31,490 nucleotides of DNA from a virus, in the IMG/VR virus record IMGVR_UViG_3300034096_000294, positions 1 to 31,490 of that record. One strand, 5' to 3'. Under the pieces are notes generated by a model. It searched no databases. It was not told the origin of the DNA and was given only the letters and a program-made list of their open reading frames with translations. Shown piece after piece: positions 2,212-31,490 of the stretch. Positions within the stretch are counted from its first letter, which is position 1; the number at the start of each line of letters is the position of its first letter. Both the position numbers and the translations under genes were made by a program.

Positions 2212-2801
2212 GCATTCAGGGAATTAGATATTGCTAACCAAAACTTCCCGATGTAGTCTTCATCCGCCTGAATGTTTATGACAGGTAGATGTGATTCCAG
2301 CTCCATATACTCCCACTGACCGAGTGAATTTACCTGATAATCACAACCTAATGTGATTGGGCAGTATTGCACACTGCTACGTTCTACGGGAATATCAAAG
2401 CGAACTATGACGTGCTGCTCATTATTCAATGTAACAAGATAGCACATACGATTTTCATTGACTACTTTCTTCTTTACGATGTACATGTTTTTATCATTTA
2501 CCCTGCGCACATCGTGCACATCGTATTCGCTATGCATCGAATCGGTAAAGTTCTCATGAAACTCAACATTATTCAGGTTCTGCTCGATTTCTCGCCACCT
2601 TTTCTCCTTATCGTCTGTGCTGAATACCAGCTTACACCAATCCATCAACTTTGCATTGCTTACATTTAGCTCCTTGCGCAAATCAGCAAAGCTTACTTTA
2701 TCAAACTTCTTCATGATAGTAAGGATATCGCTGCGTGTTGGTAACTTAGTAGTGCGCAGCTTCTTGCCTTGCGTTTTGATATATGCTTTATATTCACTCA
2801 T
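2208..2801 (-). CDS. Hypothetical protein with N-terminal winged-helix-like segment
   Basis: 197 residues, family not recognised. Residues 22-60 (TRSDILTIMKKFDKVSFADL, then a second helix with NVSNAKLMDWCKLVF) look like a helix-turn-helix or winged-helix unit. The C-terminal 100 residues are beta-rich and acidic with several aromatic residues. Start and stop overlap the neighbours, so it is translated as part of the early minus-strand operon. A DNA-binding early protein is plausible but unproven. Confidence 0.7.
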   Translation of the reverse strand: MSEYKAYIKTQGKKLRTTKLPTRSDILTIMKKFDKVSFADLRKELNVSNAKLMDWCKLVFSTDDKEKRWREIEQNLNNVEFHENFTDSMHSEYDVHDVRRVNDKNMYIVKKKVVNENRMCYLVTLNNEQHVIVRFDIPVERSSVQYCPITLGCDYQVNSLGQWEYMELESHLPVINIQADEDYIGKFWLAISNSLNA

Positions 2802-3030
2802 CGCCTTCGTTTTTAATGGTTATACAATCGACTATCTCGCACACTGGCAGTTCCATGACGCGGCTAAGGTTTATCAGCTGGCGTAACTTGATGCTGCCCG
2901 GATCATCACACCAATTATGCAAAGTCTTTTTTACTATGGGCGTGTTGCTTCTTTGCATCGCACGTAGGAGAGCAGCTTTGCTCCCTACTGTGCGTGCAAT
3001 CAGTTGGTTCAATTCCTGTCGCTTTCTCAT
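2794..3030 (-). CDS. Small HTH-like protein (XRE-type, tentative)
   Basis: 78 residues with a basic N-terminus and helices spaced like a Cro/XRE fold. The segment around residues 30-46 (TPIVKKTLHNWCDD) could be the turn and recognition helix, and the segment at 50-68 (RQLINLSRVMELPVCEIVD) resembles the last helices of such domains. In this early operon, directly downstream of a palindrome-bearing promoter, it is a candidate ligand for that operator. It could equally be a structural small protein. Confidence 0.65.
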   Translation of the reverse strand: MRKRQELNQLIARTVGSKAALLRAMQRSNTPIVKKTLHNWCDDPGSIKLRQLINLSRVMELPVCEIVDCITIKNEGDE

Positions 3031-3356
3031 TCGATTGGTTTTAATTTAGGATTGGCTACGTAGAATATTTCGCGGTGCGCTTCGCTGAACTTATGCATAA
3101 ACACTGCTTCATCGATTGGCTCATATAGCTTATCGCGCATATCACGTTCTAAACGAAAGGCTACATCCTGCTCATCTTCGTAGCATTTTGTTTCAATGTT
3201 GCAGCTATATGCGTTATGGTAAACTGTGATAAGCTTCAAATCTGCAGTGATGCAGCAATAAAATTTGGTATAATCGCCATCAATGTAGTAGTGTGGCAGT
3301 GTTACTTTTGTAGTACCTACTCGTACCGGTGCTGTGTGTGTTACTTCGATTAACAT
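3027..3356 (-). CDS. Hypothetical early protein
   Basis: 109 residues, mixed alpha/beta, with several Cys and His residues but no clear metal-binding motif. It overlaps the next gene by 4 bases (ATGA type) and sits 21 bases after the preceding gene. I do not recognise the family. Position right behind the early promoter suggests an early host-interaction or regulatory function, by inference. Confidence 0.65.
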   Translation of the reverse strand: MLIEVTHTAPVRVGTTKVTLPHYYIDGDYTKFYCCITADLKLITVYHNAYSCNIETKCYEDEQDVAFRLERDMRDKLYEPIDEAVFMHKFSEAHREIFYVANPKLKPIE

Positions 3357-3377
3357 TGTATTGAGGTTTTAAATTGT

Positions 3378-3635
3378 TTACTGATTTTCGTCATCTTGCC
3401 AAATAGCTACAGTCACTGCATCTTCTATTTCACCGATTAACTTTTTATTATTGCTATTCATGATGCACTTAGTCATGTCAATGCCAGCGCAAAGCAGTGT
3501 GTATTTACACTGATCAATAGTTGTTTCTTCAGGCGTGTAATAGTCGCCTCTAGAAAATGCGATTACGTACTCAACTTCAATAGTGAGTGTGATAGGTGCA
3601 TTGCTGCAGTCGTGTTCAAAAGTGAAATAGCTCAT
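3378..3635 (-). CDS. Hypothetical early protein, first gene of the leftward operon
   Basis: 85 residues starting MSYFTFEHDCSN and ending in an acidic tail. The frame stays open upstream to 3800, but that extension would run through the promoter and operator at 3668..3706, and the ATG at 3635 lies about 30 bases after the -7 box. That start is therefore preferred. Beta-rich; family not recognised, though small proteins like this lead early operons in many Bacteroidota phages. Confidence 0.65.
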   Translation of the reverse strand: MSYFTFEHDCSNAPITLTIEVEYVIAFSRGDYYTPEETTIDQCKYTLLCAGIDMTKCIMNSNNKKLIGEIEDAVTVAIWQDDENQ

Positions 3636-3667
3636 GTTGTTTTGTTTTTGTTTATCTTTGACGGGTA

Positions 3668-3696
3668 CAAATGTACACGCTTTTTTGATAGTGCAA
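3668..3696 (-). promoter_or_regulatory. Leftward early promoter
   Basis: On the minus strand TTG (3696..3694) and TACATTTG (3675..3668) are separated by 18 bases, matching the Bacteroidota -33/-7 pattern. A GTACA-AA-TGTAC near-palindrome (3666..3677) covers the -7 box, and a second palindrome (3691..3706) covers the -33 box. A weaker divergent rightward promoter may use TTG 3685..3687 and TATTTTTA 3710..3717, with a long 22-base spacer. Confidence 0.6.
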
Positions 3697-3706
3697 GTAT
3701 TTACAC
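3691..3706. promoter_or_regulatory. Putative operator, copy 1 (GTGCAAGTATTTACAC)
   Basis: A 16-base near-palindrome with 6-base arms and a GTAT centre. It matches the perfect palindrome at 27400..27415 in 15 of 16 positions. Here it overlaps the -33 box of the leftward promoter and would also lie between the elements of a possible rightward promoter, as expected of a repressor site in a divergent control region. Confidence 0.55.
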
Positions 3707-3833
3707 CGATATTTTTAAATTTTAACAAATCGACTGCGTAAGTATCCATATAGGGAAACATTACAGCGCATGGCTGGACAAAGCCAGTAGGCTTGCACAC
3801 GATAAACAGAAGGGAAGTGATCTACTGCATGAA

Positions 3834-4283
3834 GTGCTTGCCCGGTTAATGGATAGACCACAGCAGGACATTGAAGATATAGTGTGCGGAGGTAAAATAG
3901 AAGCATACGTGAACAGGGCATTGTGGTTATCATGGCACAGCGCACGAAGTGATTACGCTATCAAGTATCGCAAATACTACGAATTACACGTAGAAAGGCA
4001 GGTGGACGATAGCAAACAGGACGAAACATGGATAGGTGCATTTATAGATGGTGAATATCTATACAACGCAATCGGGCGTTTAAACGAATTTGATGCAATC
4101 CTTTTGCGTCTATACAGTAAACCCGATTTTGACTACAAAGAATTGAGCGCAGAAACAGGTATTCCATACAGCTACCTGCGCACTAGCATACATAGAGCAT
4201 TAAAACGAATAAGAGAATATGTTAAACTTCAACGTTCCCTCTCACATACAGCGCGAGAGATTGAATACTTGCAAAAAATGTAA
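3834..4283 (+). CDS. Sigma-70 region 4-like protein, start codon uncertain
   Basis: 149 residues from a GTG at 3834. The C-terminal third (DYKELSAETGIPYSYLRTSI followed by HRALKRIREYV) is a sigma-region-4-type helix-turn-helix of the kind that reads -33/-35 elements. Coding-like sequence continues in frame upstream of the GTG: WLDKASRLAHDKQKGSDLLH from 3771, resembling sigma region 2 starts. No ATG, GTG or TTG occurs between the in-frame stop at 3723 and 3834. Either a rare start codon is used or the GTG start is real. As first gene of the rightward arm it is a good candidate for switching on structural genes. Confidence 0.75.
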   Translation: MLARLMDRPQQDIEDIVCGGKIEAYVNRALWLSWHSARSDYAIKYRKYYELHVERQVDDSKQDETWIGAFIDGEYLYNAIGRLNEFDAILLRLYSKPDFDYKELSAETGIPYSYLRTSIHRALKRIREYVKLQRSLSHTAREIEYLQKM

Positions 4284-4668
4284 GTTTTACAACGGTACAT
4301 TTGGCACTTGCGGTACACCAATCGTTGGTAATAACGTCAATGCTGAAGAAAATGATGTTACTTACTACAAAGAGAAGATAAAGTTGTGCGGCTGCTTCAT
4401 GGATGTGAAGACAAAATTCCGCTTTGCATCATGCCCAGCACGTAAATGGTTTGCACAAGACATGAAGGAAGAAGAAATAGCTGCACTGGATACCTTCATA
4501 GGTAAAGTAAGTAAAGCGAACAGGATAGAATCAGAAGACTTGCAAATGCTTTACTATTGGTATAGCAAGATAACGAAGAAGCATGAACGCCCATCTGGAT
4601 GCGCATCATGCATACGTGATCTAATTACAGAATTCCGCAGACAATTAGGAAAAATCGATAAACCATAA
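4219..4668 (+). CDS. Cysteine-rich putative zinc-binding phage protein
   Basis: 149 residues with eight well-spaced cysteines. CKKC (18-21) and a further Cys near 31 precede a CGC pair near 58 and a SCPARKW segment near 72. This order (CxxC, CGC, CPxxKW) recurs in Bacteroidota phage proteins of unknown function placed beside the terminase. The C-terminal half is helical with another CASC pair. It overlaps the sigma-like gene by 65 bases. Zinc binding is inferred from the Cys pattern only. Confidence 0.75.
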   Translation: MLNFNVPSHIQRERLNTCKKCKFYNGTFGTCGTPIVGNNVNAEENDVTYYKEKIKLCGCFMDVKTKFRFASCPARKWFAQDMKEEEIAALDTFIGKVSKANRIESEDLQMLYYWYSKITKKHERPSGCASCIRDLITEFRRQLGKIDKP

Positions 4669-18951: not shown

Positions 18952-20875
18952 CGAATCAAATATAGTTTCTTTGAAGCTTAGCGAGTATGTTGCTAAGAGC
19001 GATGCAGAAAAGGTAGACAGAAAGGGATGGGTTAATTACGGAGATGCAAACGATTTTCCACAATACCTGCGCGATTTGGCGCACGAATCACCTGTACATG
19101 GTAGTTTAGTTGTAGCCATTGGTGACATGATAGCTGGTAAGGGTATTCAATCGGAGCAATACCAAGCCGAATTAGATGCATTAAACATAGATCGCTTAAC
19201 CTATGCATGTGCGCACGACTTAAAGTTGTTTGGTGGGTTTTATATTGAAGTCATTTGGAGCAACGACAGAACGGTTATATCCAAGCTAAACGCGATACCA
19301 TTTGAAGAATGCCGCATCGCAGTGAATCAAGAGGACGATACCGAAATAGGAATCTTTCACAGCTACGATTGGACCAACACACGTAAGAAAAGAAACACTC
19401 CCGAATTCATACCGAAGTACAATTATTTGACACGCGAGCAAGAGCCACGTCAAATCTATTATTGCTTCACTTACACCGGTAGCGATGTCTATCCACGTCC
19501 TGACTATTGGAGCGCGATAAACTACATTGAATTAGATAAGCAGATATCTATATTCCACATCAACCAAATATCAAACGGTCTTTTCCCTTCAACTATTATC
19601 AACTTCTACAATGGTCAGGCAACACCTGAACAGAAGCAGCAAATGATGATGGATTGGGAAAATAAGATGTCGGGTGCTCGTAACGCTGGCAAGGTGGTTA
19701 TGTTCTTCAATGAGCGCGATCAACCTAAGACCGAAATCACTCCGTTCCCTGTAAACGATGCAGATAAGCAGTATGCATTGATGAATGATACTGCACAGCA
19801 AAAGATTATTACTGCGCATCGTGTGACTACGCCATTGCTTTTCGGTATACGTGAGAATACAGGATTCGGTAGCAATAAAGATGAAATGGCTGTCGGCTTG
19901 GAGATATTCAACAAACAAGTGATTGAGCCATACCAAGCAAAGATTAATTACAGCTTAGAAGAATTGTTGAGCACTCAAATGCCCGGTGTAACCTTTGAGA
20001 TTATACCAAACACACCATTGGCAGTTGAGCAAGCTGAAGCTGTTGTGGATGTAACAGGTGGAACTACTACCGATGTGGCTGCTACTGCTTTAAATGGTGC
20101 GCAGATTACTTCACTTATAGACATCGTCATGCAAAGTGCAGCAGGTGCCGTACCTGTGAGCAGTGCAAAGGCAATCGTTCAAGCTGCATTCCCAACATTG
20201 CCAGCCGCTACTATCGATGCAATCTTTGCCGATGTTTTACCCGGCTCATTGCTGCCTACGGAAGTGATTCAATCTAGTGTTGAGTTAAAAAAAAAAGATG
20301 ACAGCACAGCAGGCGATGCGCTAATAGCATTGGGTGAAGATGCTAGTGAGGATTGGATACTTATAGACAGTTACAACGCAGATGAAGAAATTGAGCATGA
20401 GTTTGCGGTGCGTACAGGTGCTGCTAGGCCAGCTGCAAAAAGTGAGCAAGATGCTATTATCGATGGCAAATACTTTATTACTCGTTACGTTTACGCAGGT
20501 AGTTTTAGCCATCCTGATATGCGGCCATTCTGCAAGAAAATGATAGAAGCAGGCAAGCTATATCGCAAAGAAGATATAGTTTCAATGGAAAATGTAGCAG
20601 TCAATCCGGGTTGGGGTCCTGAAGGTGCAAACACATACGACATTTGGTTCTACAAAGGCGGTGGTAACTGCAAACACTTTTGGGAAAAGCGCGTGTATGT
20701 AGATGCACGCGGCGTAAAGATTAACCCGAACAATCCCGATGCAACACGTATAGCAGTAAGCATGGCTGAACGCATGGGTTATAAGGTGCGAAACAATTCA
20801 CTTGTTGCAAAGCTTCCTGAAGACATGCCCTATAACGGCTTCCTTCCCACAAATCCTATTTACGGCAATCAATAA
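18941..20875 (+). CDS. Portal protein with extra conserved C-terminal domain
   Basis: 644 residues. Residues 1-350 follow portal proteins of this group (GWVNYGDANDFPQYLRDL, HDLKLFGGFYIEVIW, NAIPFEECRI, HINQISNGLFPSTIINFYNG, RVTTPLLFGIRENTGFGS NKDEM). After an Ala-rich segment (about 355-450) comes a separate domain. It has YVYAGSFSHPDMRPFCKKMI at about 519-538 and YDIWFYKGGGNCKHFWEKRV near 575-594. The same KGGxxCxHxWERxVY motif occurs in other phage head proteins as a C-terminal domain of unknown function. The portal forms the DNA gate in the capsid. Confidence 0.85.
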   Translation: MSHNESNIVSLKLSEYVAKSDAEKVDRKGWVNYGDANDFPQYLRDLAHESPVHGSLVVAIGDMIAGKGIQSEQYQAELDALNIDRLTYACAHDLKLFGGFYIEVIWSNDRTVISKLNAIPFEECRIAVNQEDDTEIGIFHSYDWTNTRKKRNTPEFIPKYNYLTREQEPRQIYYCFTYTGSDVYPRPDYWSAINYIELDKQISIFHINQISNGLFPSTIINFYNGQATPEQKQQMMMDWENKMSGARNAGKVVMFFNERDQPKTEITPFPVNDADKQYALMNDTAQQKIITAHRVTTPLLFGIRENTGFGSNKDEMAVGLEIFNKQVIEPYQAKINYSLEELLSTQMPGVTFEIIPNTPLAVEQAEAVVDVTGGTTTDVAATALNGAQITSLIDIVMQSAAGAVPVSSAKAIVQAAFPTLPAATIDAIFADVLPGSLLPTEVIQSSVELKKKDDSTAGDALIALGEDASEDWILIDSYNADEEIEHEFAVRTGAARPAAKSEQDAIIDGKYFITRYVYAGSFSHPDMRPFCKKMIEAGKLYRKEDIVSMENVAVNPGWGPEGANTYDIWFYKGGGNCKHFWEKRVYVDARGVKINPNNPDATRIAVSMAERMGYKVRNNSLVAKLPEDMPYNGFLPTNPIYGNQ

Positions 20876-25639: not shown

Positions 25640-25733
25640 TGTTTAGTTTATTGATTAATTCGATTACTTGCTCTTTGTTGTAGTAGTGCTGCATTGAATT
25701 GCGCACGTGTTCTTTGAGTTGGTCGGTGGTCAT
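25593..25733 (-). CDS. Small hypothetical protein (46 residues)
   Basis: ATG 25733 overlaps the end of the exonuclease gene, stop at TGA 25593. Helical, with HYYNKEQVIELINKLNNESK. The overlap of 47 bases with the following gene and the tight start suggest translation, but composition gives no function. Confidence 0.5.
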   Translation of the reverse strand: MTTDQLKEHVRNSMQHYYNKEQVIELINKLNNESKRQSMATVLELF

Positions 25734-26497
25734 ACGTTCAAGGTATTAAGGTATTCACGCCACATAGGTACACGCTCCTGAAGCTTTGCGATTGCATCAG
25801 CATCAAACTCCACAACCTTTTCATGGATGCGTTCAGCGATGGGTATATCAAACGCCCATTCGTCTTGTGGCGTTTCAAGGTTTGCATCCGGGTATTCGCG
25901 CATAAAACGTGGCATGTCGTATATCATGTTGCGCTCAATGCTCTTTGCTTTTTTGATGAATGTAGGGTCGCCTTGCGGATCAATAAGATTGAGCCTGCGC
26001 GATAGTCTATACTTCTCGTCATTAATCATTTCGATAGGTGCGCTAACTAACACGTAGCAGAAGGTAGCGCGTGGTGCGCCTGTTAACCAGCAGTAGGCTT
26101 GACCTTGCCAGTAGTAGTCTTTGCTAATGTCGCTGGTCTTTGCATCCATGAAGGTGTGAATATCCCAACTTGATTTAATATCGGGCACATTGATTACTGC
26201 ACCTGCTTCATCTTTGATAAGCAAATCGGGCGTGCCTTTGATGAAATCATTAGTAAACATTTCTTCGTTCTTGAATACGATTTCACCGCGATGCCTGCGC
26301 CACATATCGATAGCATCATTTTCAACAGCTAAACCTTTCTCAATGTACTTGTTGCTGATTTCTTTGTACCGGTTGTACTTCTGTTGCACATAGACTTCGA
26401 GCAATGCGCTCTTAGTCGTTTCGGATAAACCTGTTTTGGTTCTTGCATCGGTCATAAGCTTACCCAGCTGCGATGCTCTAAATAGTGTGTTGTTCAT
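25730..26497 (-). CDS. YqaJ/lambda-exonuclease-like nuclease
   Basis: 255 residues. The PD-(D/E)XK core is visible in order: EKGLAVENDAIDMW (about 53-66, motif Glu), KGTPDLLIK (about 87-95, catalytic Asp), DIKSSW (about 106-111) and DYYWQGQAYCWLTG (about 127-140, conserved Gln). These enzymes degrade one strand of duplex DNA and hand the other to a single-strand annealing protein. The gene for such a protein is directly upstream, separated by an RNA hairpin, so the two form a recombination pair. Confidence 0.85.
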   Translation of the reverse strand: MNNTLFRASQLGKLMTDARTKTGLSETTKSALLEVYVQQKYNRYKEISNKYIEKGLAVENDAIDMWRRHRGEIVFKNEEMFTNDFIKGTPDLLIKDEAGAVINVPDIKSSWDIHTFMDAKTSDISKDYYWQGQAYCWLTGAPRATFCYVLVSAPIEMINDEKYRLSRRLNLIDPQGDPTFIKKAKSIERNMIYDMPRFMREYPDANLETPQDEWAFDIPIAERIHEKVVEFDADAIAKLQERVPMWREYLNTLNV

Positions 26498-26569: not shown

Positions 26570-27244
26570 TTATTCGGTAATGCCGTATTGCTCTTTTTTG
26601 GCATTTAGTTCATCGCCTACTTCGGCTAATACTTCCGGGCTGCATGCTTTGAAGATTTTATGCAGCTGTGTTAGGTCGGTAGCCTGCTGGATTAGTTCGC
26701 GAACATACGCCACATCCTGTTCATGCCCCCTGCCCAATGCACCTTTCAATTTAAATGGCTTGTACGTATCTTTATTCACACGGTTAACGTCACGCCCGAA
26801 TACCTTACCTAATGACAGCGCAGCGTTTTTAAGGCATTCTGCTTTGAGTTTACCGAATGCAAGGTCCATCGCATTCGCTTTTTTATTATCGGGGTTTAAT
26901 GCCCATCTATTGCGTTCAGTACCGGTTACACCATCGGGCACGCGATCTACCATAATGATAACAGAAGCTGCGCCTACTCTGCGTATTTCGTAACCACTTA
27001 TCGGGTGTATCACTACAAGGTCAATCGATGCCTGTACTTCGTTAGCTAATACAGCCCACTTAAAATTTTCTGTTCTCCAATGTCCGAAGAACAGTTCATC
27101 TAAGGTGGTTTCAACGTGGCTAATAACCAGCGTGCGTGCTTTCTTATCCGGTGTAGATTCGATACCTGCTTGGTCAGGTTCTGCATTCAGCATTTGCTGA
27201 AACTTCTGCAATGCTTCTAAGTTGTCTTTGTGAAATGAGTTCAT
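26570..27244 (-). CDS. Rad52-like single-strand annealing protein
   Basis: 224 residues. The central block (TLVISHVETTLDELFFGHW, then NFKWAVLANEVQASIDLVVI and GYEIRRVGAASVIIMVD) follows the annealing proteins common in Bacteroidota phages and related in fold to Rad52. AFGKLKAECLKNAALSLGKV with FGRDVNR is the matching C-terminal part of the core. They pair complementary single strands during phage recombination and replication. It sits upstream of a YqaJ-type exonuclease and behind the promoter at 27392..27421. Confidence 0.82.
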   Translation of the reverse strand: MNSFHKDNLEALQKFQQMLNAEPDQAGIESTPDKKARTLVISHVETTLDELFFGHWRTENFKWAVLANEVQASIDLVVIHPISGYEIRRVGAASVIIMVDRVPDGVTGTERNRWALNPDNKKANAMDLAFGKLKAECLKNAALSLGKVFGRDVNRVNKDTYKPFKLKGALGRGHEQDVAYVRELIQQATDLTQLHKIFKACSPEVLAEVGDELNAKKEQYGITE

Positions 27245-27262: not shown

Positions 27263-27367
27263 TTAGTATTTCATTAGGCAATCATTGATTTCTTGGCAGT
27301 AGCTAAGCACTGCGTAAAGGATAACTGCTGCGATAATGTAGCGAAGGATTTTAGATGCTGTTTTCAT
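27263..27367 (-). CDS. Very small membrane protein (34 residues)
   Basis: ATG 27367 to TAA 27263, first frame behind the promoter at 27392..27421. Sequence features: a basic start (MKTASKILR), one hydrophobic helix (YIIAAVILYAVLSYC) and a polar tail. It lies 18 bases before the annealing protein. Small membrane proteins of this kind can be toxins, anti-host factors or leader peptides; I cannot tell which. Confidence 0.5.
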   Translation of the reverse strand: MKTASKILRYIIAAVILYAVLSYCQEINDCLMKY

Positions 27368-27391: not shown

Positions 27392-27421
27392 CAAATGTAG
27401 TGTAAGTATTTACACACGCAA
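27392..27421 (-). promoter_or_regulatory. Promoter of the recombination operon
   Basis: On the minus strand TTG (27421..27419), 19 bases, TACATTTG (27399..27392): a full consensus match. The -7 sequence is identical to that of the leftward early promoter at 3668..3696. A perfect palindrome fills most of the spacer. Confidence 0.7.
27400..27415. promoter_or_regulatory. Putative operator, copy 2 (GTGTAAGTATTTACAC)
   Basis: Perfect 6-base inverted repeat with a GTAT centre, located between the -33 and -7 boxes, directly next to the latter. It matches the site at 3691..3706 in 15 of 16 bases. A repressor bound here would block transcription of the recombination genes. Confidence 0.6.
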
Positions 27422-27438: not shown

Positions 27439-27924
27439 TTAGTTGTGCACCACTGGGACTAGTGTTGCGCCAAACATGTACAAAGCTTGTAATACCTTAT
27501 CCATTCTACATGTTTCTTTACCTCCCTCTACTTCGCGAACAAAACGTAATCCAAGACCAGATCTTTCTGCGAATTCATGTTGTGTCATTTTTAATGATTT
27601 CCTTTTTTCTTTAATAAATCTACCTACCTGATAATCTGCATACCGTAATTGTTTTGGCGATGGAATAACTTTATTAATCAAAGGAGCATTTCTATTTTTA
27701 AACTCGTTAATCCAATAGGTTTCACTATTTCTTAAATCATCTGCATTTCTTTCTAAAATTTTTACTATTGGATCACGACCTAAACCATCAATCCATTTTT
27801 TCAATTCAGGATTATGTGTGCTAGTAATGTGACTATATGGACGTTCTAATCCATTTGCGGACATACCAACATAATAGGTCAAACCATCATGTGGTGATTC
27901 AAGTGCGTAAACTATATTTTTCAT
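27439..27924 (-). CDS. GIY-YIG nuclease domain fused to XRE-type HTH regulator
   Basis: 161 residues. The first 85 follow the GIY-YIG superfamily: strand IVYAL (4-8), YYVGMSAN (17-24), Arg28 and His32, the SETYWI helix with Glu68 and APLIN with Asn84. Residues 98-157 are a Y4mF/HipB-like XRE helix-turn-helix (VGRFIKEKRKSLKMTQHEFA, then RSGLGLRFVREVEGGKETCR). The joined domains suggest a DNA-bound nuclease or a regulator derived from one. The gene has its own promoter with a palindrome over the -7 box, hence probable autoregulation. It lies directly upstream of the operator-bearing recombination promoter, making it the leading candidate for the phage's main regulator. Confidence 0.85.
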   Translation of the reverse strand: MKNIVYALESPHDGLTYYVGMSANGLERPYSHITSTHNPELKKWIDGLGRDPIVKILERNADDLRNSETYWINEFKNRNAPLINKVIPSPKQLRYADYQVGRFIKEKRKSLKMTQHEFAERSGLGLRFVREVEGGKETCRMDKVLQALYMFGATLVPVVHN

Positions 27925-27926
27925 AA

Positions 27927-27944
27927 TGTAACATATTTGTTACA
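27927..27944. promoter_or_regulatory. Putative autoregulatory operator (TGTAACATATTTGTTACA)
   Basis: Perfect 7-base inverted repeat around TATT. It begins two bases before the end of the -7 box and covers the expected transcript start, 3 bases from the ATG. The half-site TGTAA is shared with the 16-base operators, at a wider spacing. Confidence 0.55.
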
Positions 27945-27973
27945 AATATAGCGCAACGTTTAGAATATTACAA
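27943..27973 (-). promoter_or_regulatory. Promoter of the GIY-YIG/XRE gene
   Basis: On the minus strand TTG (27973..27971), 20 bases, TATATTTG (27950..27943), a full consensus match. The leader to the ATG at 27924 is about 10-15 bases. Confidence 0.65.
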
Positions 27974-27987
27974 ATGTGATATAAAAT

Positions 27988-29289
27988 CTACGCCCACGAA
28001 TAGCTGCCGTAGTTTGGGAATAGTTCAAAGTACATGCGCATCATGATAGCATCTGCATAGTCAGGTGACTTGCCATGCATCCGGGCTATTTCATCTTTGG
28101 AAATAACTGCAAGCTTTCCATCTGCTTCAGGTTGCCTTCTACGTATCATATCCAGTTCCTGAACGATTACATCACGAAACTGATTCACTTTGAAGATTAC
28201 TTTGTTCTGCTCAATTAATTCTGCAAGCTTGAAATAACATTCTGCTTTTTGATTAGTAAACTTATCTGCTTGCTTCGCACGCCCACCATTAAGGAAGCCC
28301 CTGCAACGGAGCGCATCGACCGCACCCCCTCCAACCCCATCTTCATCGCAGATCACATTGCTAAGTTTGATACCATGTCTATCGCATAGCTGACGTATGG
28401 TAGATACAACTGTTGTGATGGGTTGCTTTCGCAATTCGTGTATTTCAATCAGGTGCAATCCATGCCACACGCAAATCACACTTCTATCTTTTCCAAGTCG
28501 AGCGATGTCGGAACTGATGTATTTATCGCCTTTGCTTTCTTCATCCCGGAAGCAGCGCAACAAATCTTCATACTGATATATCCAGTCTACACTTTCGTCA
28601 TAGTCCCAATCGCCTTCGAGCAATCGCTTTCTATCTGCTTCAGGAAGGCGCATCATCTTTGCTTCATAGACTGCATCAGGATTCACTGTATTATCCTTCA
28701 TCAAAGCTTCCACAAATGCTTTGTGTGGTGGCAATAATTCTTTTTTCCATGGATGCCAATAGTCATTGTATAACCAACCTTTCGATGGATTACAACTCAT
28801 CAAACCTTTTGGAATACCACCAACTAAATTGTAACGCACACGTGTGTCGATTATATCAACCGCCTTCTTTGTCATTTCTGCAACCTCGTCTAAGAAGTAA
28901 TCAGTAATTTCAAGTGATCCAAATCTATGGAAATCGGGATCGCTGGGTGTAGCTGCCATATCCATTAGGATTGTTTCACTACCATTGAACCAACGAATCA
29001 TGTTTAGTTGCCCATTATACGTGTAGTGTTCACCTGCCTTCAATCCCATTTGGGTGCATATCTCCCAAAAGCGAAGCATGGTAGATAGTTGCAGCTTCTT
29101 TAATTCAGCACGACCTATCAAACCACGTGTATGTGGATGCTTCAGTCTGCGTGCAATTTGCCAGTAACAACCCAACCATGTCTTACCACCGTATACACCA
29201 CCACCATACAACACCTGCTCTACATTGCTGGATGTAGATAGGTGCCGTAGGGCTTGCTCTTGTTTGCTATTGAATTGGGCTTGGTACAT
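27988..29289 (-). CDS. terL: Terminase large subunit
   Basis: 433 residues. The ATPase has a Walker A-type GGGVYGGKT (29-37) and a Walker B strand YFLDE (131-135, Asp134 and Glu135). The C-terminal RNase H-like nuclease shows ISSDIARLGKDRSVI near 250, a NVICDEDGVGGG segment near 315 and GKSPDYADAIMMRM near the end, giving the acidic triad. It pumps DNA into the capsid and cuts it. Unusually, it lies in the minus-strand arm with replication and recombination genes, far from the small-subunit candidate and from the structural genes. It starts one base before the end of the HNH gene (TAATG). Confidence 0.92.
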   Translation of the reverse strand: MYQAQFNSKQEQALRHLSTSSNVEQVLYGGGVYGGKTWLGCYWQIARRLKHPHTRGLIGRAELKKLQLSTMLRFWEICTQMGLKAGEHYTYNGQLNMIRWFNGSETILMDMAATPSDPDFHRFGSLEITDYFLDEVAEMTKKAVDIIDTRVRYNLVGGIPKGLMSCNPSKGWLYNDYWHPWKKELLPPHKAFVEALMKDNTVNPDAVYEAKMMRLPEADRKRLLEGDWDYDESVDWIYQYEDLLRCFRDEESKGDKYISSDIARLGKDRSVICVWHGLHLIEIHELRKQPITTVVSTIRQLCDRHGIKLSNVICDEDGVGGGAVDALRCRGFLNGGRAKQADKFTNQKAECYFKLAELIEQNKVIFKVNQFRDVIVQELDMIRRRQPEADGKLAVISKDEIARMHGKSPDYADAIMMRMYFELFPNYGSYSWA

Positions 29290-29864
29290 TATTCAACGTG
29301 TTTCCATCTACGAAGTATTACATCCTTGATAGTTGAATCTGCTACACCATATTCCAACGCTAACATCTTCCGGGTATATTGATATGGTTTAAACTTTTGT
29401 CGAATCTCTTTTACCTGTTCTTCATTCAATTTGGCTGTTCCGTTCTTGCTACCTTTTACAAAGTTGGTACATATTGGTTTTTGAATTCGACCTGCATCGT
29501 AGCTGTACTTTGTATTTTCAGCAGGTGTAACCCATTCCAAATTTTCTAATCGGTTATCGTCACGAACAAAGTTGATGTGATTGACTTGAGTCTTCTTTTG
29601 CGGATTTTCAATCCATGCAGAAGCAACCAAGCGATGCAACATAACTGATTTAAGTTTGCCTTCTTTCAAAATCACTGTGGCTAAATAACCTTTATGATTC
29701 TTAGCTGGCTTCATAATCGCATGCCTGTTGCTATTCTTATGCTTAGTGGTAAGCAATCGTCCCATATTACTAATCAAATACCTTTGATTTGTATTTGGAA
29801 CGTACTTCCAAAATTCACCCGGATTGCTTTGAATCGGTGAGTTAATAGATTCTAATGTTATCAT
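29289..29864 (-). CDS. NUMOD4/HNH homing endonuclease
   Basis: 191 residues. NUMOD4-like start (FWKYVPNTNQRYLISNMGRL, 18-37), HNH core at about 76-112 (MLHRLVASAWI, then VNHINFVRDDNRLENLEWVT with His96, Asn97, Asn104 and Asn108), and a C-terminal HTH/NUMOD1-type DNA-binding tail (AKLNEEQVKEIRQKF, YGVADSTIKDVI). Free-standing homing endonucleases often sit beside terminase genes and spread by cutting relatives that lack them. It has its own promoter with an 18-base palindrome, and ends in a TAATG coupling to the terminase. Confidence 0.88.
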   Translation of the reverse strand: MITLESINSPIQSNPGEFWKYVPNTNQRYLISNMGRLLTTKHKNSNRHAIMKPAKNHKGYLATVILKEGKLKSVMLHRLVASAWIENPQKKTQVNHINFVRDDNRLENLEWVTPAENTKYSYDAGRIQKPICTNFVKGSKNGTAKLNEEQVKEIRQKFKPYQYTRKMLALEYGVADSTIKDVILRRWKHVE

Positions 29865-31352: not shown

Positions 31353-31490
31353 TTTGAGTTTCGATTAGTTCCCTATAACGTTCCTGCCTGTATTCCGTAA
31401 ACTGATACGGCTTGTTTTTGTACACCCGGAAGCGCATGTCGTTATCCCATTGTGGCAGCGCATCGTATTCGCGCATGAGTGCAATCTCAA
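31342..31490 (-). CDS. 3' part of the junction-spanning replication-module gene
   Basis: This is the C-terminal end of the protein that starts at 623 in the left end of the window. It reads through the terminal repeat in one frame and stops at TGA 31342..31344. The stop overlaps the ATGAATACTGA start region of the next minus-strand gene (start 31352), so the two are translationally coupled. The C-terminus is rich in Tyr, Arg and Glu. Confidence 0.75.
   Translation of the reverse strand, partial: EIALMREYDALPQWDNDMRFRVYKNKPYQFTEYRQERYRELIETQNEY
31364..31490. repeat. Terminal direct repeat, right copy (circular overlap)
   Basis: Second exact copy of bases 1..127. Removing either copy leaves the minus-strand gene spanning the junction intact, with its stop codon at 31342..31344. 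Confidence 0.95.

Follow-up and report, generated by a model that had tools for sequence, protein, structure and literature searches.

The window, i.e., the whole stretch of 31,490 nt that was analysed (IMG/VR virus record IMGVR_UViG_3300034096_000294), begins and ends with the same 127 bp (positions 1-127 repeat directly as 31364-31490), and the contig is circular or circularly permuted. No useful nucleotide relatives were found among named phages, the only match being one of 54 bp to Staphylococcus phage Twort, and the nearest relative of the terminase is that of Flavobacterium phage 11b (42%). The 54 bp, 87% identical to the region of the Twort homing endonuclease I-TwoI, belong to an HNH-like gene (29289-29864, minus strand) beside the large terminase gene, which suggests that this gene encodes a homing endonuclease.

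Two operons on the minus strand are considered here. The main leftward operon starts with two genes of no known family, encoding proteins of 85 aa (3378..3635) and 109 aa (3027..3356), followed by the gene of a 78-aa helix-turn-helix (HTH) protein (2794..3030), our proposed repressor, in which residues 34-42 (KKTLHNWCD) form the predicted recognition helix. The recombination operon comprises a small ORF of 34 aa (27263..27367) that is conserved in relatives, a 224-aa gene (26570..27244), and a RecE-like exonuclease gene (25730..26497; PHROG 5715, E-value 1.2e-45), in agreement with the original prediction that one of the two promoters drives recombination genes. A GIY-YIG/XRE protein is encoded on the same strand at 27439..27924.

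Palindromic sites in two early promoters

Both promoters carry the same -7 box TACATTTG, as was first described, at 27399-27392 for the recombination operon and 3675-3668 for the main leftward operon, and each has a TTG 18-19 nt upstream of it on the minus strand (27419-27421 and 3694-3696, respectively). This arrangement is of the Bacteroidota type: TAnnTTTG is the main -7 consensus of flavobacteria (PMC9723704) and also of Bacteroides (PMC7366714).

The near-identical palindromes reported at 27400-27415 (GTGTAAGTATTTACAC) and 3691-3706 (GTGCAAGTATTTACAC) are present exactly and differ at one base, with GTGYAA/TTACAC arms flanking a 4-bp spacer. Given the terminal repeat and the circular contig, they lie ~7.65 kb apart, close to the ~7.7 kb first estimated. 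On the minus strand, the candidate operator of the recombination-operon promoter (site 1, GTGTAAATACTTACAC) fills the -33/-7 spacer and abuts the -7 box, whereas the candidate operator at 3691-3706 (operator A, GTGTAAATACTTGCAC) overlaps the -33 TTG. A third site that had gone unnoted, operator B (3663-3678, minus strand, GTGTACATTTGTACCC), overlaps the -7 box of the leftward promoter that also carries operator A. Operators A and B are arranged in tandem, with start-to-start distances of 28 bp in the window and 29 bp in relatives, and in several relatives operator B is a perfect palindrome (GTGTACATTTGTACAC).

The sites stand out clearly from chance. When up to three mismatches were allowed on both strands of the whole window, four matches were obtained, all at the 27400 and 3691 places, against an expectation of 0.38, and none of 100 shuffled windows (mean 0.38) gave four. 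The pattern GTGTA-N6-TACAC with at most one mismatch occurs at five places in the window, three of them in the two promoters and two within genes (the motif matches at 20693 and 16502 are intragenic). With a scoring matrix built only from type I sites of relatives, leaving out any identical to those of the window, the three sites rank first to third in the window (23.6, 22.8, and 17.8), followed by an intragenic match of 14.5, and the highest maximum across 30 shuffles was 16.5. Chance palindromes are thus ruled out by the shuffles and the matrix scan, and the genome scan called for at the outset gave no comparable non-coding matches elsewhere in the window. The anticipated shared regulon under one trans-acting factor is supported, although it consists of three sites in two promoters rather than of two sites.

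On the plus strand, TATCTTTG at 3653-3660 (relatives have TAYCTTTG) persists whatever the operator type, although its distance from the main leftward promoter varies. A rightward promoter that faces the leftward one and overlaps operator B could have its -7 box here; no clear -33 element was seen for it. An Rfam search of 3000-4300 found nothing.

Conservation in related phages and choice of regulator

The loci collected from IMG/VR numbered about 80 for the recombination gene, 30 for the opening gene of the leftward operon, and about 150 for the HTH gene; many are near-duplicates, so that locus counts overstate independence. The sites are conserved in these relatives, as the test set at the outset requires, with conserved operator arms and variable 4-bp spacers. 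Across 38 distinct main leftward promoters of phages with a lysine at the start of the recognition helix (Lys34), positions 3-6 and 11-16 of operator A are 97-100% conserved, against values near 50% at two of the four spacer positions. The recombination operator abuts the -7 box in relatives as well, and where a gene has been inserted behind the promoter, the operator stays at the -7 box, ~410 nt upstream of the recombination genes as against 170. Exceptions are the L186/L189 loci, where operator A is degenerate despite an HTH protein of the window's type, and the apparently rearranged L207 and L220 promoters, which are off the pattern. Conservation of the promoters as such does not account for these observations, because GTGTAA upstream of the -33 element and TACMC after the -7 box are conserved too, and these arms beyond the promoter elements vary with the HTH protein. 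In the L015 and L041/L043 loci, the small ORF is separated from the 224-aa recombination gene by a tRNA-like sequence (GTCAGGTGGC...GTTCGAATCTTGTCCTGACTACA).

Two candidate regulators had been named, the GIY-YIG/XRE protein and the small HTH protein. In favour of the former, it has an XRE-type domain (HTH_3, E-value 2e-4), its gene adjoins site 1, and its own palindrome (TGTAACAAATATGTTACA / TGTAACATATTTGTTACA; 27927..27944, at the start of the gene, minus strand) has TGTAA in common with the sites. Nevertheless, the protein was found in none of 17 relatives that have the small HTH protein (positive control 4/4), most of which retain GTGTAA-type operators. Its own palindrome has a different layout (TGTAAC-N6-GTTACA), closely matched in L003-L006 and partly eroded in L007, and in L003-L006 the next promoter after the GIY-YIG/XRE gene lacks a GTGTAA site. 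We therefore reject it as the cognate regulator; that it represses these sites is highly improbable. The palindrome at 27927-27944 comes directly after a TATATTFG-like -7 box (TATATTTG; 27943-27950, minus strand) and is kept in L003-L006; it is likely the gene's own operator, and the gene is probably autoregulated and has probably moved as a mobile unit between phages.

The small HTH protein is strongly supported as the regulator. It was found in 17/17 relatives, and its gene comes third after operators A and B in the window as well as in relatives. AlphaFold2 predicts five helices (residues 2-14, 18-27, 34-42, 49-59, and 63-68; pLDDT 84 for the best model, with three of five models poor), with residue 34 at the start of the predicted recognition helix. 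In structural comparisons, phage CI heads and XRE regulators rank highest, including the DNA-binding domain of TP901-1 CI and DdrO, with SinR, P22 c2, and 434 Cro (Z 6.7) lower down; as the Foldseek E-values are weak and small helical folds easily reach middling Z scores, the matches support the fold and no more. The protein is thus predicted to be a five-helix HTH domain folding like a Cro/CI head. At the sequence level, it has no match in Pfam, PHROG, or INPHARED (50,697 phage records), a PDB sequence search gave nothing significant, and the HTH_3 profile weakly matches 6 of 31 of its relatives (best E-value 0.0083).

Linked change of recognition helix and operator

Since the universal presence of the HTH protein is in itself weak evidence, we tested for linked change between the protein and the sites. 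Residues 32-38 divide the HTH proteins into types: IVKKTLH (VKK, the window), ITKKTLY (TKK), IAVKTLY (AVK), IAEKTLY (AEK), ITERTLY (TER), ISDRTLY (SDR), and VNERTFY (NER). Phages of the VKK and TKK types have GTGTAAN4TTGCAC at operator A and GTGTANATTTGTACMC at operator B; the other types have sites such as CTGAAATTATTTGCAG, TCGAAATAATTTGCAT, or ATGTAAATATTTGCAG, with the second site at a different distance. The recombination operator changes likewise, with TTRCAC in VKK/TKK phages and TTGCAG in SDR and NER phages. Overall, Lys34 pairs with GTGTAA..TTRCAC, and other residues pair with NTGNAA..TTGCAG/T. Counted as distinct combinations, a C at operator position 16 occurs at the recombination site in 24/24 cases with Lys34 and is absent in 13/13 cases with other residues; the corresponding figures at operator A are 15/15 and 13/14.

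Operator type is not supported as a by-product of relatedness. In the rest of the protein beyond the helix, the TKK type shares 83-84% identity with the AVK/AEK/TER types and 72% with VKK, yet TKK phages have the operators of VKK phages. Likewise, the recombination operator tracks the HTH type and not the relatedness of the recombination gene: a phage with a 95% identical recombination gene and an SDR HTH protein has TTGCAG, and one with a 66% identical gene and a VKK HTH protein has TTACAC. A tree built from two further operon genes shows four changes at Lys34, each accompanied by a switch of the operator base (4/4 independent pairs); for example, L221, a TKK phage with type I sites, is nested with L225/L227, which are of the AEK type and have other sites (99% support). 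With four switches only, a sign test cannot fall below 0.125, so the evidence for the outer base tracking residue 34 is strong without being formally decisive. In a model-built complex of the 933W repressor, the first residues of the recognition helix, S41 and K42, lie on a conserved outer G of the half-site (PMC3317979), comparable to the pairing of Lys34 with the outer G here, which would call for a contact of this sort.

Proposed circuit, alternatives, and known systems

Taken together, the palindromes are most likely operators of one phage repressor, the 78-aa HTH protein, in a Cro-like shut-off of early and recombination genes. The sites, their conservation, the place of the gene, the predicted fold, and the linked change were established by computation; dimer binding, repression, and timing are inferred, with the linked change as indirect support for binding and repression. 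An HTH dimer would bind GTGYAA-N4-TTRCAC, covering the -33 element (operator A) and the -7 box and start region (operator B) of the main leftward promoter through tandem sites, and filling the -33/-7 spacer of the recombination promoter through a single site; occupancy would block the host RNA polymerase. Because its own gene is the third one that operators A and B would control, the protein would silence its own synthesis, and negative feedback is the simplest circuit: as it accumulates, it would shut down its own production along with early and replication genes, and the recombination genes in step.

The small HTH protein might instead bind the sites to activate the recombination promoter, or act both ways. 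The recombination site is fixed relative to the -7 box and many relatives have lost the -33 TTG, so the promoter could need help, although a conserved A/T-rich upstream stretch (AATTTTAACAATTTTTAACA) could stand in for the -33 element. Sites that fill the -33/-7 spacer or lie over the -7 box are normally obstacles to polymerase, and from type to type the main promoter's second site shifts its position but always covers the core promoter. As all three sites lie on the promoter core, this fits polymerase blocking and not activation, and we consider an activating role unlikely. A host regulator as the binding factor would be in keeping with the use of host-type promoters by these phages and with the 16-bp symmetrical layout, which is also typical of bacterial regulators. 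However, the sites switch with the recognition helix of the phage protein, also on the flanking-gene tree, and a host factor would need to change alongside it by chance or through host range, which makes this reading very unlikely.

It is also quite unlikely that the HTH protein is a CI-like lysogeny (immunity) repressor of a temperate phage, even though tandem operators and diverse operator types resemble immunity regions and TP901-1 CI is among the nearest solved folds of the model. Profiles of tyrosine and serine integrases (PF00589 and PF00239) matched nothing in 20 phages, and no relatives of the HTH protein, hence no prophage homes for it, were found in ~85,000 cellular genomes (one genome per species), both of which make a lysogeny repressor less likely. 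In addition, the protein has only 78 aa and no second domain, and its gene sits inside the operon that it would silence.

The preferred reading, a repressor of early genes, is closest to the Cro-type lytic repressors (lambda and 434 Cro; phiKO2 Cro, PMC4997575), which are likewise small single-domain HTH proteins encoded in an early operon, with operators that overlap early promoters as in this phage. By contrast with Cro systems, no opposing CI-type repressor was identified among the ORFs checked for HTH domains, the only other regulator noted being the GIY-YIG/XRE protein that is absent from relatives; there is also no integrase and no sequence similarity, and the promoters are of the Bacteroidota type. 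CI-type repressors (TP901-1 CI, P22 c2, and 933W) share the predicted DNA-binding fold but differ in that the small HTH protein has no C-terminal domain and there is no sign of lysogeny. Thus, the kind of circuit is known, and what is new is the protein family, its operators, and the helix-matched operator series in uncultured Bacteroidota phages; a search of the openly accessible literature found no paper on this circuit.

Among lambdoid phages (immunity types) and mycobacteriophages (immunity groups), relatives differ in repressor specificity and, together with it, in all their operators. The types described here are found in phages with no detected integrase and involve three sites in two promoters only. 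We tentatively suggest, as a possibility that we hold with considerable doubt, that in phages without lysogeny an early-gene repressor has split into several operator-specificity types via the start of its recognition helix, with every operator of a given genome re-tuned accordingly, giving immunity types without lysogeny. If so, such types would keep co-infecting relatives from mutual silencing, or let a resident phage silence a like newcomer.

The analysis suggests, from sequence alone, a likely function and DNA target for a family that lacks Pfam and PHROG annotation, and it describes a natural series of matched repressor/operator types in one phage group. Swaps could test directly the rule linking residue 34 to the outer base, and the series might also yield repressor-promoter pairs for Bacteroidota that are insulated from one another.

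Opposite the leftward operon, a rightward sigma-factor-like gene (3729-4283, plus strand; PHROG 1740) has an unusual beginning (start-codon region 3723-3834). The protein similarity to relatives extends to ATC 3729, with an in-frame TAA just upstream, and the first in-frame ATG, GTG, or TTG is GTG 3834; relatives of the SDR type have TTG in place of this ATC. The gene therefore seems to start at ATC 3729, and a non-standard AUC/AUA start is possible.
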